NCBI GenBank assembly: GCA_947450025.1
Contig: CANFTW010000004.1
Location: forward strand, 124,001-188,000
Source: Bacteroidota bacterium
Lineage (GTDB): Bacteria > Bacteroidota > Bacteroidia > B-17B0 > Aurantibacillaceae
Length of the DNA stretch: 64,000 nt
Direction: 5' to 3'
Of the stretch, positions 2,431 through 12,437 are shown in pieces (the stretch's first letter is position 1; each line of letters starts with the position of its first letter). Below the pieces are notes generated by a model. It ran no database searches. It was not told where the DNA came from and was given only the letters and a program-made list of their open reading frames with translations. The translations under genes were made by a program, and so were the position numbers.

Positions 2431-2438
2431 TATTTTTG
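2431..2438 (+). promoter_or_regulatory. -7 promoter element of the thioredoxin-fold gene
   Basis: TATTTTTG is an exact match to TAnnTTTG. It contains the TTG that would otherwise be the longest possible start of the gene. This argues that translation begins further downstream, at 2466 or 2490. Confidence 0.6.
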
Positions 2439-2465
2439 GGCATACATTTTACCTTTTTTAGCACC

Positions 2466-3114
2466 ATGTTTAACTGGAAAGATATATCAATGGCAGGGAT
2501 TATTATCCTTGGTGTTATATTCTATACTTGTAAAAAAAACACCTTACAAGCATCCATCTTTTCAGATGAAAATAGAGCTAGTAATTTTATTCAACCAAAT
2601 AATATCACCTTTACCTCAGAAAACACAGATATTAATTTTCGAGAAGAAGCATTAGTTAATTGGATAAGTTTTGATGAAGCCTATTTAAAATGTAAAAAAA
2701 ATCCTCGTCCCATTTTAATTGATATTTATACTCAATGGTGTGGTCCGTGCAAAATGATGACTCATCAAACATTTAACCATCCTGATATTGCAAAAATATA
2801 TTAATGATAATTTTTATGCCGTGAAATTTGATGCAGAAAGCAAAGACAGTGTGAAGTTTGACAAATACACCTTTGTTAGTTCAGATAATTCTAACCCGAA
2901 AGCAGCGCATCAATTTGCTTTATCTATATTAGATAATCAATTGGCTTATCCTTCAATTGTATTTTTAAATAATCAAATTCAACGATTGGATATCATTAAA
3001 GGTTTTATGCCTCCTAAAAGTTTTGAGCCAATATTAAAATATTATGGATCTGGAGACTACCAAACGAGTAAATGGGAAGATTATGAAAAAACATTCGAAT
3101 CTTCCCTTAAATAA
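2466..3114 (+). pseudogene. Thioredoxin-fold envelope protein, interrupted by a frameshift
   Basis: Two overlapping reading frames together encode one thioredoxin-like protein of about 216 residues. The first part has an N-terminal hydrophobic segment (AGIIILGVIFYTC, possibly a lipoprotein signal) and then the redox motif WCGPC. It ends at a TAA at 2802-2804. The second part continues in the +1 frame with the rest of the fold, including the cis-proline region LAYPSIVFLNN. Removing one A from the run of five at 2792-2796 restores continuous sequence DIAKYINDNFYAVKF. The family reduces or transfers disulfides in the periplasm. Promoter position favours ATG 2466 or 2490 as start. Either the gene is a recent pseudogene or there is a one-base homopolymer assembly error; the second half looks well conserved, so error or very recent mutation is likely. 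Confidence 0.8.
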
Positions 3115-5213: not shown

Positions 5214-5577
5214 AAAACAGGTTTGTTTCATCGCTCTTTATATTAAGGGAGGAAAGTCCGGGCAACGCAGAGCAATTTGCCATCTGAAAAGATGGGTATG
5301 TTTTTAGGAATAAAAGCATAACAGAGAGTGTCACAGAAAACCAGGTAGCCATTATGTTTACATAATGGTCATAGTGAAAATGTGAGGTAAGAGCTCACAT
5401 GTGTAATTGGTAACAAATACATAGGACAAACCTCTTATGTTGTAAGGCCATGTAAACTCTAATTTTGTGGCGGCTCGTCACAATAACTTCGGTTATGTTA
5501 GAGAGGGTAGGCTGCATAGATAAATGATGAAAGTCGTGCTTGCACGAAACAGAACTCGGCTTATAGAACCTGTTTTT
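5214..5577 (+). ncRNA. rnpB: RNase P RNA, bacterial type A
   Basis: This is the catalytic RNA of RNase P, which removes 5' leaders from tRNA precursors. The universally conserved 5' core GAGGAAAGTCCGGGC is at about 5250-5264. The matching 3' core ACAGAACTCGGCTTATAG is at about 5550-5566. The ends pair as helix P1: AAAACAGGTT at 5214-5223 with AACCTGTTTT at 5567-5576. The internal GAGAGGGTAGGCTGC segment fits the conserved region preceding the 3' core. Size (about 364 nt) is normal for the type. The gene sits alone between a small membrane protein gene and the PKD gene. Confidence 0.95.
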
Positions 5578-5594
5578 ATTTTTAAACTGTACTC

Positions 5595-8500
5595 ATGCTA
5601 AACCGCATATTATATACCATCATGATTGTTTTGGTTTCAAAACTATCATTTGCTCAGTGTCCTCAAGTTTATGACTACTTAGGAAATTTAGTAACCAATC
5701 CCTATTTTATTGATTGTCAAGGAACAGGGATATATAATATGAATTTCGCATCGAATACCAACTGGGGGCCATACACAATTAGTTGGGGAGATGGAACAGC
5801 AAATACTGTTGGCGCCTCCTACACGGCTAGTTCATTAATTAATCACACTTATAATTCATCAACACCAGACACATTTGTTATTACACTCAGTATTCCTTCT
5901 TTAAGTTGTACCCTCACAGGGTTGGCTGTGATGGAAAAACCCGTCAACGCGTCTATACAAATCCCAATTGGAGGCATCACTACTGCATGTGCACCAAAAG
6001 CACTATTATTTACTAATTCTAGTACGGATGTTTCACAAACCACATGGTTCACTTGGAACTTCGGTGATGGTTCTCCTATTCAAACTTTCAGTTATTCGAA
6101 TGTTGGACAAACCATTTCACACACTTATAATCCTGGTACAGTTAATTGTCAAACAGCAGTGACATTAACTGCAAAAAATTATTGTACAACCATACCTACT
6201 ATTGCAAATTTCAATCCTATTCAAATTTATGATAAAGATGATGCGGCCATTACACCATCTGCTTTTATTAAATGTTGGCCCGATAATATATTTACATTTA
6301 CAAATACAACAAATCGAAATTGTGTCCCTCAAGGAAATACGTTTCAAAGACAAGAACGATGGAATTTAGGCGACCATTGGGGATTAGGGCATGATTCGAT
6401 TGTGGGATGGAGACCTTGGCCTCCTACTTCACCGCTGAGTGTTGCGTATCCTTCAGTTGGAACCTATACCGTTTTATTAGAAGATAGTAATTTGTGTGGA
6501 GTGGATCTTCAAATTCAATCGGTTACTATCGTAAACCCTCCAACGGCTGGTATTATAGCACCCTCAGGTCCATTATGTCAAAATTCAGCTATTACCTTTA
6601 CGAATACAAGTCCTACAGGATATTTGTATAAATGGAATTTTGGAAATGGTGGAGGTTTTGTTTCTAAACCATACGGAGTTCAAACATACACCTACAATAC
6701 ACCTGGAACTTATACTATATCCTTGGTTGCACTAATTGGTGGAGGTGGCGCCTCATGCACTGATACCGATAAAGTGGTGATTACAATTTTACCAAGTCCT
6801 ACAGCAAACTTTACTGTCAGTCCAAATAAAGGATGCAATTCTATTACAGGTGCAACGTTTACAGATTTATCCTCTAATGCTATTTCTTGGGCTTGGAATT
6901 TTGGAAACGGAAATACATTTAACGGTCAGATTCCTCCAGCTCAAAATTACACCAATATTGGAACTTCAATAGCGAGTTTAACGATTACTTCGGCTAATAC
7001 TTGTACCCAAAGTTTTACCACACCCATAACTGTTTATCAAATACCAATAGCAGCTTTTTCATCAACTAATGCCTGTGTTGGAGCATTAGTCAATTTTATT
7101 GACAATTCAACTCATGCTTCAGGAGATCCTATTATTTCTTGGAATTGGAATTTTGCTGATGCATCCCCTACCTCTTCTGCTTCTATTCAAAATCCTTCTC
7201 ATACATACTCTGTTCAAAATACATACTCTGTTCAATTGTCTGTAAATACAGCAAATTGTAGTGACACAGTCATTCAAAACATTACAATCAATATTAAACC
7301 TACAGCTCATTTCACCTTAACGCCAAGTAATGGCTGCCCTACTCTAACGGTTAATTTTACAAATACATCAACTAATGCAACAAGTTATAATTGGACTTTT
7401 GGAAACGGAAACAATTCAGCTGTAATTCATCCTACAGAATTATTCACAAATACCACCGCGGTTAATCAAACTTATACTATAAATCTAACAGCGTCAACTG
7501 CTTCAGGCTGTTCAGATTCCTTTACATCAACCGTTACTGTATTTAAAAAACCGATCTCATTATTTTCTGTCAATGCTCCAGCAGGTTGCTCACCTGTGGC
7601 AGCAACTTTTTCTAACACCTCTTCAGGTGCGAATAGTTTCTTGTGGACATTTGGAGATGGCGCAACAAGCACAAATTCTACAGCAGTTTTATCACATACA
7701 TATGTAAACTCCACATTATTGATTCAAACATACACAGCACAATTAGTAGTGAATAGTATCAATGGTTGCAAAGATAGCTCATCAATCAGTATCACCTCAT
7801 ATCCAAGACCTATTTTCAACTTCACCATGTTGCCAAATAGTGGATGTTCGCCATTGAATATAAATTTCCCTTCTGTTCTTGGTGCCGTTTCATATCAATG
7901 GGATTTTGGAGATGGAAGTCCCTTAGATTTTTCTCCTAACCCAAATCACACCTTTACCAATACAACAACCGTTAACCAAACCTTTACCGTACAATTAATT
8001 GCCTCAAATGCTTTTTCGTGTGCCGATACAGCATATGGCTACCCTATTGTTTTCGCAAAACCTCAAGCTAACTTTGTTCATACGCCTACAGTTGGATGCT
8101 CTCCTTTATTGACGACGTTTACCAATAATAGTATATCGGGCACAAGCTATCTTTGGAGATTTGGGGATGGAACAACATCCTCTTTAACCAACACTAATCA
8201 TACTTATATCAATCCAAACAATAACTCCAATCAACCTTATAGCTGTACTTTAATTGCAAACAGTATCAATGGATGCAAGGACTCTATTACAAAAAACATT
8301 TTGGTTTATTATAAACCAGATGCCACGTTCAGTATTGACACTCCAAAATGCCTTTCAAAAACAATCACTTTTACTAATCATACAATAGGTGTTACAAATA
8401 ATATTTGGGATTTTGGTGACTTTTCTAGTTCAAACCTTGCAAATCCAATTCACACCTACACTAATAATACCTCTGGAAATATAACTTTTACCGTTGGATT

Positions 8501-9869
8501 GATATCAAGTTCATCCGATGGATGCAAAGACACGTCATTTGCATTTCCAGAAATTTACGCTAAACCAATTGCTAACTTTGCTTTAACACCAAGCGTTTCA
8601 TGTTCTCCTCTAACAACAAATATGTCAAATTTCAGTTTATTTGCATCATTATACTTATGGAAGTTTGGAGATGGAAATACATCTGCATCTTTAAACACCA
8701 TTCATTCCTATTCTAATACTAGTTTTACATCTAATCAAACCTATACTTGCACCTTAATTGCAATTAATAATAACGGATGTACAGATTCTATATCGCAACC
8801 ATTATTAGTATTATATAAACCTAAGGCAAATTTCACTGTTGACACACCAAGTTGTTCGACTAAATTGCTAACCTTTACAAATACCTCTTTAGGAGGAATT
8901 TCCTATCAATGGAATTACGGAACCGGAACTTCAAGCAATACCAATCTATCTCAACAATTCACCAATACAACAAATGCTAATCTTACACAAACTGTTCAAT
9001 TAATTACAAGCTCTTTAAATAATTGTAAAGACACGTTAATTGTCCCAATTATTATTCATCCAAAACCTGAGTTTTCTATTATCGCTTCACCTGATTCTGG
9101 ATGTACAGCCTTAAGTGTTAATTTTCCTCCAATAATTGGTGTAATAAACTATCAATGGAATTTTGGAGACGGCAATATTTCAACAACTGCTAATACAACA
9201 AATACATATTATAACAACTCACCTACTAATAAAACATTTATTGTTCAATTAATCGGAACTGATGCCTACGGATGTAAAGACACATCAACAAAAATAATTC
9301 GTGTGTTTGCTAAACCTATTGCTTTATTTCAAGCTAATCCAAATACAGTATTTATTCCAAACAATGCCGTCACATGTTCTAATCTTTCTTCTGGCGCCAC
9401 AAGTTATTATTGGAATTTTGGAGATCAAACAAATTCTACAGAAACTAATCCCTCTCATTTATATCAAAATGTAGGAGAGTATCAAATATATTTAGTTGCT
9501 ACAAATATTAAAGGGTGTAAAGATACTTTTGAACTTCCATTCAAAATAATTGCACAATTAGAAAGCTCAATCGATATTCCAAATGCATTTTCTCCTAACC
9601 CGAATGGAGGGAACGGCGGAGTATATAATGATAATGATTTAAACAATGATGTTTTTCATCCAGTTTTAAAAGGAATCGACAAATATGAATTGAATATATT
9701 TTCACGATGGGGAGAACTCTTATTTGTATCAAAAGATATTTTAATTGGTTGGGATGGATACTATAAAGGAAAACTTTGTACACAAGATGTGTATGTTTGG
9801 AAAATCATTGCAACAACCATTGATGGAAAAAAAATTAATAAAACAGGAGATTTACTATTATTAAGATAA
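5595..9869 (+). CDS. Giant PKD-repeat cell-surface protein with T9SS type-B C-terminal domain
   Basis: A 1424-residue secreted protein. It begins with a signal peptide (LYTIMIVLVSKLSFAQ, cleavage after about residue 21). About 15 PKD-type beta-sandwich repeats follow, recognisable by core motifs such as WNFGDGS, WDFGDGS and WRFGDGT. From about residue 570 the period is regular at 80-90 residues, and many repeats carry a Cys pair (GCSP near the start, GCKD near the end) that could form disulfides. The last 100 residues (IDIPNAFSPN, FSRWGELLF, YVWKIIATTIDGK, KTGDLLLL) match the gliding motility-associated C-terminal domain (CHU_C), a type-B signal for the type IX secretion system. It is therefore predicted to be exported to the surface or medium. 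PKD repeats usually serve adhesion or spacing; no catalytic domain is visible. It heads an operon with the two following genes. Confidence 0.93.
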   Translation: MLNRILYTIMIVLVSKLSFAQCPQVYDYLGNLVTNPYFIDCQGTGIYNMNFASNTNWGPYTISWGDGTANTVGASYTASSLINHTYNSSTPDTFVITLSIPSLSCTLTGLAVMEKPVNASIQIPIGGITTACAPKALLFTNSSTDVSQTTWFTWNFGDGSPIQTFSYSNVGQTISHTYNPGTVNCQTAVTLTAKNYCTTIPTIANFNPIQIYDKDDAAITPSAFIKCWPDNIFTFTNTTNRNCVPQGNTFQRQERWNLGDHWGLGHDSIVGWRPWPPTSPLSVAYPSVGTYTVLLEDSNLCGVDLQIQSVTIVNPPTAGIIAPSGPLCQNSAITFTNTSPTGYLYKWNFGNGGGFVSKPYGVQTYTYNTPGTYTISLVALIGGGGASCTDTDKVVITILPSPTANFTVSPNKGCNSITGATFTDLSSNAISWAWNFGNGNTFNGQIPPAQNYTNIGTSIASLTITSANTCTQSFTTPITVYQIPIAAFSSTNACVGALVNFIDNSTHASGDPIISWNWNFADASPTSSASIQNPSHTYSVQNTYSVQLSVNTANCSDTVIQNITINIKPTAHFTLTPSNGCPTLTVNFTNTSTNATSYNWTFGNGNNSAVIHPTELFTNTTAVNQTYTINLTASTASGCSDSFTSTVTVFKKPISLFSVNAPAGCSPVAATFSNTSSGANSFLWTFGDGATSTNSTAVLSHTYVNSTLLIQTYTAQLVVNSINGCKDSSSISITSYPRPIFNFTMLPNSGCSPLNINFPSVLGAVSYQWDFGDGSPLDFSPNPNHTFTNTTTVNQTFTVQLIASNAFSCADTAYGYPIVFAKPQANFVHTPTVGCSPLLTTFTNNSISGTSYLWRFGDGTTSSLTNTNHTYINPNNNSNQPYSCTLIANSINGCKDSITKNILVYYKPDATFSIDTPKCLSKTITFTNHTIGVTNNIWDFGDFSSSNLANPIHTYTNNTSGNITFTVGLISSSSDGCKDTSFAFPEIYAKPIANFALTPSVSCSPLTTNMSNFSLFASLYLWKFGDGNTSASLNTIHSYSNTSFTSNQTYTCTLIAINNNGCTDSISQPLLVLYKPKANFTVDTPSCSTKLLTFTNTSLGGISYQWNYGTGTSSNTNLSQQFTNTTNANLTQTVQLITSSLNNCKDTLIVPIIIHPKPEFSIIASPDSGCTALSVNFPPIIGVINYQWNFGDGNISTTANTTNTYYNNSPTNKTFIVQLIGTDAYGCKDTSTKIIRVFAKPIALFQANPNTVFIPNNAVTCSNLSSGATSYYWNFGDQTNSTETNPSHLYQNVGEYQIYLVATNIKGCKDTFELPFKIIAQLESSIDIPNAFSPNPNGGNGGVYNDNDLNNDVFHPVLKGIDKYELNIFSRWGELLFVSKDILIGWDGYYKGKLCTQDVYVWKIIATTIDGKKINKTGDLLLLR

Positions 9870-9870
9870 T

Positions 9871-11433
9871 ATGAAAATAACATTACAACTCTTAGCTTTG
9901 CTTTTTACAGTTCATTTTTACGCGCAAACAAAAGTCGCACCTAAAACTGTAGCTAAAAATCTAAAATTAGCGAATGCCGCATTTGAGGCCGAAGATTACA
10001 TCATTGCCATTAATACCTATAAAAAAGTTTTGCAAGAAGATGCTAATAATGAAACTGCTAATTTAAATTCAGTTATTTGCCGAATAAAGTTAAATCAATC
10101 AGCTGATTCTTGTGCTCCATATTTATTAAAATTAAAAAAGAGTTCATCCCCTGAAGTTCAATACTATTTTGGGAAAATTTATCATCTAACTTATAATTTT
10201 GAAGAAGCGATAAAGTGCTATGAGAATTATAAAAAAATTAACATTAAAAAAAGAAGTATAACAGATGAAGAAGTAAATTATCAAATTTTATGTAGTAAAA
10301 ATGCTATTGATTTGGTAAATCAACCTCATTTATCAATTATAAAAAATATTGGTAACGAAATAAATACTTCATACGCTGAATATGTACCTTTAATTACACC
10401 CGACGAAAACTTTTTATATTTTACGTCAAGAAGAGAAGGTAGTACTGGTAATTTAAAAGATGCTTATGGAAATTACTATGAAGATGTTTATGTTTCTCAG
10501 AAAAACAGTAATGGAAAATGGAGTACACCTAAAAATATTGGGCCACCAATTAATACAAATACACATGATGCTTGTGTTGCTTTAAGTTTTGATGGTAATC
10601 AAATGATTGTATATAGAACTTCCGAAGACCAACTGAGCGGTGATTTATATTTAACACATACAGATTATGAAGGTTGGAGTGCTCCTATAAAATTAGGTCC
10701 TCAATTTAACACTCCTTCAATCGAAACAAGTGCCTGTTTTAGTTCAGACACTAGTGTTATTTACTTTAGTTCAAATAAACCAGGGGGCTTAGGAGGTAAA
10801 GATATTTATCGTGTCAAAAAACTTCCAAATGGAAAATGGTCTTTACCTATGAATTTAGGACCAACCATCAACACTGATAAGGATGATGACTCTCCATTTC
10901 TTCATCCAGATGGTATAACTTTATATTTTAGTTCAAAAGGTCATAACACGATGGGGGATTATGATATTTTTAAAGCCATTTTGAATACCGAAACAAATAC
11001 TTTTTCCTCTCCTGAAAATTTAGGTTATCCTATTAATACCGTAAACAACGACATCTTTTTTGTTTTAAATGCTAATGGCACTAGGGGTTACTACTCCTCT
11101 GTTAAAGAAGAGACATTTGGAGGATCTGACATTTATACGGTTGACACTCGATTTGGAGACAACGATTTTAAAGTCAAACATGGAAAGGTGATGAATGGAA
11201 AAGAATTATGTAAAGCTAAAATTACCTTAATTGATATTGAAAGCAAAAAGGTATCTGGCATTTTTAATGCAAATTCAAAAACAGGAAAGTTTATTTTGGT
11301 GATGAATCCTTTAAGATCTTATAAAGCAATTGTAGAGGAAGATGGATTTCAAACGATGATATTAGATATTGAACCTTTAGCTAATGAGCAAACTGAAACC
11401 GATTTAATTTTAAGTTTAACTAAAAAACCATAA
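9871..11433 (+). CDS. TPR and PD40 (WD40-like) repeat envelope protein, PorE-like without OmpA domain
   Basis: A 520-residue secreted protein with a signal peptide (LQLLALLFTVHFYAQ). Tetratricopeptide-like helices cover about residues 27-145. About five PD40 blades follow (150-430), with recurring units such as PDENFLYFTSRREG, VIYFSSNKPGG and TLYFSSKGH, each followed by D-Y/I-F/Y. A carboxypeptidase regulatory-like beta domain (GKVMNGKELCKAKITL onward) ends the protein. The T9SS component PorE and related proteins share this order but end with an OmpA-like peptidoglycan-binding domain, which is missing here. The gene starts one base after the PKD gene stop (TAATATG), so the two are translationally coupled. 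A periplasmic role in exporting or anchoring the PKD protein is inferred from context. Confidence 0.85.
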   Translation: MKITLQLLALLFTVHFYAQTKVAPKTVAKNLKLANAAFEAEDYIIAINTYKKVLQEDANNETANLNSVICRIKLNQSADSCAPYLLKLKKSSSPEVQYYFGKIYHLTYNFEEAIKCYENYKKINIKKRSITDEEVNYQILCSKNAIDLVNQPHLSIIKNIGNEINTSYAEYVPLITPDENFLYFTSRREGSTGNLKDAYGNYYEDVYVSQKNSNGKWSTPKNIGPPINTNTHDACVALSFDGNQMIVYRTSEDQLSGDLYLTHTDYEGWSAPIKLGPQFNTPSIETSACFSSDTSVIYFSSNKPGGLGGKDIYRVKKLPNGKWSLPMNLGPTINTDKDDDSPFLHPDGITLYFSSKGHNTMGDYDIFKAILNTETNTFSSPENLGYPINTVNNDIFFVLNANGTRGYYSSVKEETFGGSDIYTVDTRFGDNDFKVKHGKVMNGKELCKAKITLIDIESKKVSGIFNANSKTGKFILVMNPLRSYKAIVEEDGFQTMILDIEPLANEQTETDLILSLTKKP

Positions 11434-11435
11434 TT

Positions 11436-12437
11436 ATTAAACATCGTAGCACATACTTTTTCCTATTATTGACGATGATGCTTTCAGTTATCTTGAAAGC
11501 TCAAGACCCTCAATTTACTCAATTTTATGCATCACCTATGTATTTAAATCCTGCATTTACAGGTGTTACATATGAACATCGTTTCGTAGCAAATTACCGA
11601 AATCAATGGCCTGGTATTAGTAAAACCTATCAAACCTATATGGCAAGTTATGACTACAACTTAAGCGAGTTAAATAGTGGCATTGGGATAACCGTTATGC
11701 AAGATAGAGCTGGTAGTGCTGGATTAACCCATTCTCAAATAGGGGTTAGTTATGCATACCATTTTAAAATAAGCAAATTTTCAGAAATTAGAATGGGCGC
11801 TAATTTATCTTATAATATGAAACGACTAGATTTCAATAAATTAAGATTTAATGATCAAATCGCTACTGGGTCTTCTACTTCTATTGAAAGTTCTAAATAC
11901 GAACAATTAAATTTTATGGATTTCGCTGCTGGTGCGCTATTAAATTCAACAGAATATTGGTTAGGATTATCAGCTAAACATTTAACACAACCTAATTCAA
12001 GCTTAACTGGTGATAATGTTCCATTACCCTTAAGTTTAAGTTTGCATGGTGGATATCGATTTATAATAGAGAAACAAGGCCGACATGATTTAAAACGTTA
12101 TATATCTCCTGCATTTAATTATAGACATGAGCAAAAATATGACCAATTAGATATAGGGATTTATTACTACCATTTACCATTATATGCCGGAATTTGGTAC
12201 AGAGGGTTGCCCTTTAAAAAGTATAAAGCAGCATACTCTAGTAAAGAAAGTATAGCACTATTAATTGGTGTTGAAATTACAGATTACAATCTTAGAATAG
12301 GCTACAGTTATGATTTAACGATTTCTAAACTTGGTGTCGCTAATTCCTTAGGTGCTCATGAAATTTCATTAGTGTATGAAATAGCAAAGAAGAAAAAAAG
12401 AAATAGAAAAGTACTGGTTAGTTGTCCTAAATTTTAA
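11436..12437 (+). CDS. PorP/SprF family type IX secretion outer membrane protein
   Basis: An outer-membrane barrel of the PorP/SprF family, needed in other Bacteroidota for secretion or surface attachment of specific T9SS type-B substrates. The family N-terminus AQDPQFTQFYASPMYLNPAF is intact and beta-barrel strands run to the end. The start is unusual. The first ATG (11475) gives only MMLSVILKAQ, too short for a signal peptide. Reading upstream in frame gives IKHRSTYFFLLLTMMLSVILKAQ, a normal signal peptide, beginning at ATT 11436 or at ATT 11433, whose A is the last base of the upstream stop (TAATT where TAATG is usual). I therefore propose an ATT start; TTG 11469 is the alternative. It is the third gene of the cassette and ends at a strong terminator. 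Confidence 0.88.
   Translation: MKHRSTYFFLLLTMMLSVILKAQDPQFTQFYASPMYLNPAFTGVTYEHRFVANYRNQWPGISKTYQTYMASYDYNLSELNSGIGITVMQDRAGSAGLTHSQIGVSYAYHFKISKFSEIRMGANLSYNMKRLDFNKLRFNDQIATGSSTSIESSKYEQLNFMDFAAGALLNSTEYWLGLSAKHLTQPNSSLTGDNVPLPLSLSLHGGYRFIIEKQGRHDLKRYISPAFNYRHEQKYDQLDIGIYYYHLPLYAGIWYRGLPFKKYKAAYSSKESIALLIGVEITDYNLRIGYSYDLTISKLGVANSLGAHEISLVYEIAKKKKRNRKVLVSCPKF

Follow-up and report, generated by a model that had tools for sequence, protein, structure and literature searches.

A conserved three-gene type IX secretion cassette of Bacteroidia with an OmpA-less PorE-like protein and a cysteine-tailed PorP/SprF carrier, possibly linked to the gliding track

The window, that is, the entire 64,000-nucleotide stretch of DNA analyzed here, contains three adjacent genes that encode a giant substrate of the type IX secretion system (T9SS), a PD40 protein and a PorP/SprF-family barrel (Table 1). 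An earlier note on this DNA had described them as a cassette consisting of a PKD giant with a type B C-terminal domain (CTD), an OmpA-less PD40 protein and a PorP/SprF protein, and the three open reading frames are indeed found where it had placed them. The tight spacing to which it had pointed is also borne out: the stop codon of the giant, ending at 9869, is separated by 1 nt from the ATG of the PD40 gene at 9871, and the PD40 stop, ending at 11433, by 2 nt from a conserved ATT at 11436, if this is where the PorP gene starts.

Table 1. Features of the cassette and its upstream flank, in window coordinates
Feature	Position	Strand	Basis and remarks
RNase P RNA gene rnpB (RF00010)	5215..5579	+	cmscan, 190.8 bits; context of the cassette, not its function
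Giant T9SS substrate, putative adhesin	5595..9869	+	Open reading frame, 1424 aa; Sec signal peptide; 12 PKD domains
Type B CTD of the giant, extended loop	9570..9866 (boundaries approximate)	+	Profile matches, loop comparison
Predicted periplasmic PorE-like protein, 520 aa	9871..11433	+	TPR, PD40 propeller (read as five-bladed), CRD beta-sandwich; no OmpA, no lipobox
PorP/SprF-family outer-membrane carrier	11436..12437	+	PF11751, TIGR03519; C-terminus LVSCPKF
C-tail cysteine motif SCPKF, predicted disulfide site	12420..12434	+	Tail comparison

The translated giant starts with an N-terminal Sec signal, and in the profile search, PKD_4 matched 12 stretches of it (5.8e-97). Its C-terminus falls below the cut-offs of both curated profiles, CHU_C (25.7 bits, cut-off 27) and TIGR04131 (27.1 bits, cut-off 35), probably because of an extended loop (FSPNPNGGNGGVYNDNDLNNDVF). 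Alignment with 12 other CTDs from the same genome shows that the conserved type B motifs are present, up to the conserved end WDGYYKG..GDLLLLR. Judged by these motifs and the extended loop, the giant is a type B-like substrate, albeit one that scores under both curated cut-offs.

The middle gene product combines a clear PD40 match (1.4e-20) with weak TPR matches. Its best profile match is the CHU_0125 family (NF053607; 223 bits, far below the cut-off of 620), where it aligns with the TPR/PD40/CRD part of the OmpA-bearing profile CHU_0125_OmpA (positions 12-503 of 639); it also aligns with positions 16-448 of 648 of the PorE profile (NF052230; 196.3 bits, below the cut-off of 600). The AlphaFold2 model (pLDDT 88.5) comprises helices resembling TPR, a propeller with, by our reading, five blades and a CRD-like sandwich, after which the protein ends. 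The order TPR, propeller, CRD that is typical of PorE is thus present in both the profiles and the model, and no OmpA or OmpA_C peptidoglycan-binding domain was found in the profile search. By inspection, the signal sequence (...HFYAQ-T) contains no lipobox cysteine. Because the OmpA domain, lipidation and the profile cut-off all fail, we call this protein PorE-like and not a PorE. Foldseek searches with the model retrieved only generic propeller-containing proteins, with an overall TM of about 0.3. A local frameshift as the cause of the OmpA loss is ruled out, given that the PorP gene follows at once and that the entire clade of cassette PD40 proteins (tree support 99) lacks OmpA. The same genome encodes three more OmpA-less PD40 proteins, none of which adjoins a PorP gene (L021 4276-5937, L022 4951-6543, L023 4428-6059).

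The third gene is, by its matches to PF11751 (4e-67, 227.1 bits against a cut-off of 22.3) and TIGR03519 (255.8 bits, cut-off 90.55), a member of the PorP/SprF family. Its tail contains a single cysteine, without the Cys-X-Cys twin motif, and this cysteine is invariant in all four near relatives. A PDB sequence search with this protein gave no match, and the AlphaFold2 model, built from five near-identical sequences (pLDDT 45.7), was set aside. The listed reading frame starts with TTG at 11469, which cuts the signal peptide, so that the ATT at 11436 is the likelier start. The ATT-AAA codon pair (window 11430-11475) is kept in near relatives; several genomes of the same genus have no ATG, GTG or TTG before the hydrophobic core of the signal peptide, whereas in many genomes of other genera, such a codon is available. 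Possibly, the PorP gene is translated from ATT by termination-reinitiation after the PD40 stop.

Upstream, rnpB ends 15 nt ahead of the ATG of the giant, with no terminator found between the two (window 5215-5595). This arrangement is kept in 42 genomes of the family (genera g1, g3, g6 and g8), and given this conserved linkage, the cassette may be co-transcribed with rnpB.

The genome-wide search for PorP/SprF and type B genes that the earlier note had proposed yielded 17 PorP/SprF-family places, one of which (C1:292200) is PorV, and 36 type B CTD matches, along with 122 type A matches. Most of the PorP genes lie directly 3' of a type B gene; four of them have an OmpA-bearing PorE-like gene behind them, and these carriers have SPRYF-like tails. 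Only in the window unit does an OmpA-less PD40 gene lie between substrate and carrier, and this unit also supplies the cognate type B substrate of the window carrier. The genome has further genes for PD40 proteins that do bear OmpA. Among its paralogues, the window PorP is most similar (37%) to a carrier encoded beside gldJ, porU and porV that ends in SCPSF. GldJ is present, and the GldK of this genome contains the sequence RGCFLGNFKP, the cysteine of which, by alignment with PorK, we take to match GldK Cys343. PorP genes that end in SCPSF and lie beside gldJ, with no adjacent type B gene, are seen in several families (L018 8776-9735, L236, L248, L268, L298); such a PorP is a candidate carrier for many orphan type B substrates.

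To trace the cassette, 87 genomes of the family were searched, and proteins scoring at least 418 bits were counted as PD40 orthologues (paralogues came next, with up to 398). PD40 and PorP orthologues were each detected in 56 of the 87 genomes and jointly in 52, of which 49 have the two genes adjacent and in the same order; among the remaining three, two are split over contigs, and in G029, the PorP gene has moved 58 kb. At the level of the class, 395 genomes were drawn, which contain many PD40 proteins of 500-600 aa with 38-48% identity. From these, 40 loci were picked by PD40 similarity and a short open frame, so that the absence of OmpA among them is partly selected; their neighbours are unselected. 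The succession of type B giant, OmpA-less protein and PorP was observed in 39 of the 40, across 14 other families, with one PorP cut by a contig end. The cassette is a conserved neighbourhood, its order being kept over 15 families, and random association, the outcome against which the earlier note had set its claim, is refuted by the adjacency within the family and the order across the class. Among the 38 complete class-level carrier tails, 36 carry a cysteine motif, usually C[PA]KF; it is absent in two.

Co-occurrence of the three families, also put forward in that note, holds for most genomes, but PD40 occurs in some of them without giant and PorP, and in others, the pair occurs alone. G013, G014 and G035 have lost both giant and PorP and retain PD40 next to rnpB; G031 has no giant, and its contig breaks off within the PD40 gene. 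At the four loci concerned (L120, L121, L122, L123), PD40 directly adjoins rnpB, and PorP is missing along with the giant wherever the contig shows it. That PD40 persists in these four genomes suggests that this protein may have a function of its own. Conversely, PD40 is gone in G076, G056 and G084, two independent events on the tree, and the carriers of all three also lack the tail cysteine; with n=2, this coincidence is too small for an association test. The tail cysteine was lost although PD40 was kept in five family carriers (G052, G053, G020, G025, G027), and most of the Cys-less carriers have long branches in the tree (about 0.5 to 1.6 vs a median of 0.18).

The substrate CTDs vary along with the carriers. 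Loop length was scored as the spacing between the SPN and RWG motifs, which superseded an earlier pattern that halted at an inner ND. This spacing is 33 in most cassette substrates, against 23 in most others (six cassette values below 33 may be misreadings), with about 10 extra loop residues in the cassette CTDs. Among substrates whose carriers end in C[PAM][KS]F, 57 of 63 have long loops, vs 14 of the 64 substrates of other carriers (Fisher 8e-16, kinship ignored), and nine of these 14 exceptions are cassette members, or former ones, in which the carrier has lost its tail or is broken ahead of it. It appears that long-loop type B substrates can fall below the curated type B profile cut-offs.

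A comparison of carriers freed of the selection on PD40 drew on the window's own genome, on almost every PorP from seven further genomes and on part of those from an eighth. No tail cysteine is present in 22 of 26 carriers followed by a PE gene (OmpA/PorE type) or in any of the seven that precede gldKLM; GldJ-adjacent carriers have it in five of five (SCPSF). When the tail was excluded from the PorP tree, a single clade (SH-aLRT 95) united all 35 cassette carriers with the GldJ-linked ones, and the OmpA/PorE-linked carriers with SPRYF-like tails fall mostly into another, together with most other carriers (SH-aLRT 100), although the details are unsure because this is a quick tree with long branches. 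A further Cys-tail PorP group (CPIYM, CPEYL and similar) goes with short-loop CTDs (L015, L255, L277, L230, L244, L263), in some cases with a PE gene downstream. CTD loop, PD40 type and carrier tail go together, largely by inheritance within clades; substrate, adaptor and carrier thus fall into matched classes. The proposal of the earlier note that the combination with an OmpA-less PD40 protein may define a distinct variant is supported by this, since OmpA-less protein, carrier class and CTD subclass group together across the class. At the sequence level, the variant is recognized by three linked signatures, namely, an OmpA-less PorE-like protein encoded between the other two genes, a C[PA]KF carrier tail and an extended CTD loop.

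That type B substrates depend on their carrier for secretion and are anchored by it is known (PMC12618676, PMC9143113), and cognate type B/SprF pairs have been published (PMC12618676); the idea of a dedicated export and attachment module, raised in the earlier note, agrees with these pairs, so that the pairing itself and the export and attachment function are established biology. Judging by homology, the giant would cross the inner membrane by Sec and then pass the T9SS translocon, and the barrel would take it over via the type B CTD and stay bound as its surface anchor. We consider it very likely that the giant is exported and anchored by the barrel encoded two genes downstream. The product of the middle gene would be a periplasmic PorE-like adaptor; that it binds the inner face of the carrier and, because OmpA is missing, cannot tie the carrier to peptidoglycan, as PorE does through OmpA (PMC7192894), seems probable.

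The carrier tail links this scheme to gliding. A disulfide joins Cys326 of SprF to Cys343 of GldK, a residue invariant in GldK/PorK, and gliding needs both cysteines of the Cys-X-Cys tail of SprF; P. gingivalis PorG has a single cysteine (PMC12635249). The cysteine of SCPKF could, in the same manner, form a disulfide with the invariant GldK cysteine, in which case the adhesin would ride the gliding track instead of being fixed; we give this bond about an even chance, counting against it the one tail cysteine here compared with two in SprF and the loss of the tail cysteine in some carriers. All in all, a PorE-like protein without a wall domain next to an SprF-like carrier cysteine fits a track-linked adhesin better, and we lean slightly toward the trio being a single export-and-anchoring unit for a mobile adhesin, where we infer both the movement and the disulfide. 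Weighing against this reading are also the CTD scores below both curated cut-offs, the PD40 genes kept where the giant is missing and the largely clade-wise inheritance of the associations.

The principal competing explanation, which we deem unlikely, is a static anchor, with the OmpA-less protein fixing the carrier via a separate peptidoglycan-binding or OmpA protein, like in Fjoh_3952-3951-3950 or PG1035-PorP-PorE. The TPR/PD40/CRD part common to PorE-like proteins, the availability of OmpA-bearing PD40 proteins in this genome and the reading of F. johnsoniae type B operons with a PorE homologue as static (PMC12618676) speak for it, but OmpA is missing throughout the cassette clade, the gene order differs, and the carrier lies outside the OmpA/PorE-linked clade, with a Cys tail that is unusual there. 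Less probable still, the PD40 protein could be a loading factor or chaperone that keeps the carrier or the CTD in the periplasm until export and stays outside the mature anchor, with the tail cysteine pairing with PD40 or an oxidoreductase. Such a role would suit the position of the gene between substrate and carrier, with gaps of 1-2 nt, and the loss of the tail cysteine in both PD40-loss events. However, pairing with PD40 was rejected for want of covariation, as both conserved PD40 cysteines, 235 and 289, stay where the carrier cysteine is lost, and a tail cysteine is also found in carriers that have no PD40 gene next to them (L140-L146). A plain type B/PorP pair, to which a PD40 gene with an unrelated function is loosely tied, would accommodate the four genomes with PD40 but no giant and the three with the pair but no PD40, but is very improbable in the face of an order conserved over 15 families and a single clade of cassette PD40 proteins.

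Compared with known systems, the trio resembles PG1035-PorP-PorE of P. gingivalis, where a type B substrate, a PorP barrel and a TPR/PD40/CRD partner form one complex (PMC9143113); PorE, however, is a lipoprotein with an OmpA peptidoglycan-binding domain (PMC7192894), and the window protein is neither lipidated, by its signal, nor so equipped. The F. johnsoniae operon Fjoh_3952-3951-3950 (PMC12618676) likewise encodes a type B substrate, its cognate carrier and a PorE-like protein, but in the order substrate-carrier-PorE and with a reported static role, whereas in the window, the OmpA-less gene precedes a carrier gene whose product has a Cys tail. In the window's own genome, all four OmpA/PorE units follow the F. 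johnsoniae order and lack the tail cysteine. SprB-SprF of F. johnsoniae (PMC12635249) shares with the window a large adhesin, a cognate carrier with a C-tail cysteine and the partner cysteine in GldK, but SprF has Cys-X-Cys where the window carrier has one Cys. CHU_0125 (NF053607; PMC5891637), described as a Pal homologue, has an OmpA part that is absent from the window PD40 protein. In the full-text literature, as far as its partial coverage goes, we found no paper combining PD40, SprF and gliding; within that coverage, the trio is a conserved and apparently undescribed variant of an already known type of system.

Research on the T9SS and on gliding has yet to settle what makes a type B adhesin fixed or moving. 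Tentatively, and with somewhat less confidence than for the window unit, we suggest that Bacteroidia possess a third class of type B adhesin unit, conserved since ancient times, in which the gene for an OmpA-less PorE-like adaptor lies between those for substrate and carrier, and a single-Cys carrier couples the adhesin to the GldK track. If so, PorE-like proteins would come in two kinds, wall anchors and track adaptors, the rule that a PorE-like gene in the operon implies a static adhesin would fail here, and a sequence rule (OmpA-less partner, C[PA]KF tail, long-loop CTD) would predict mobility from genomes.

Elsewhere in the window, at 2436-3114, a frameshift or an assembly error divides a thioredoxin-like protein between two open reading frames that overlap and lie in different frames.
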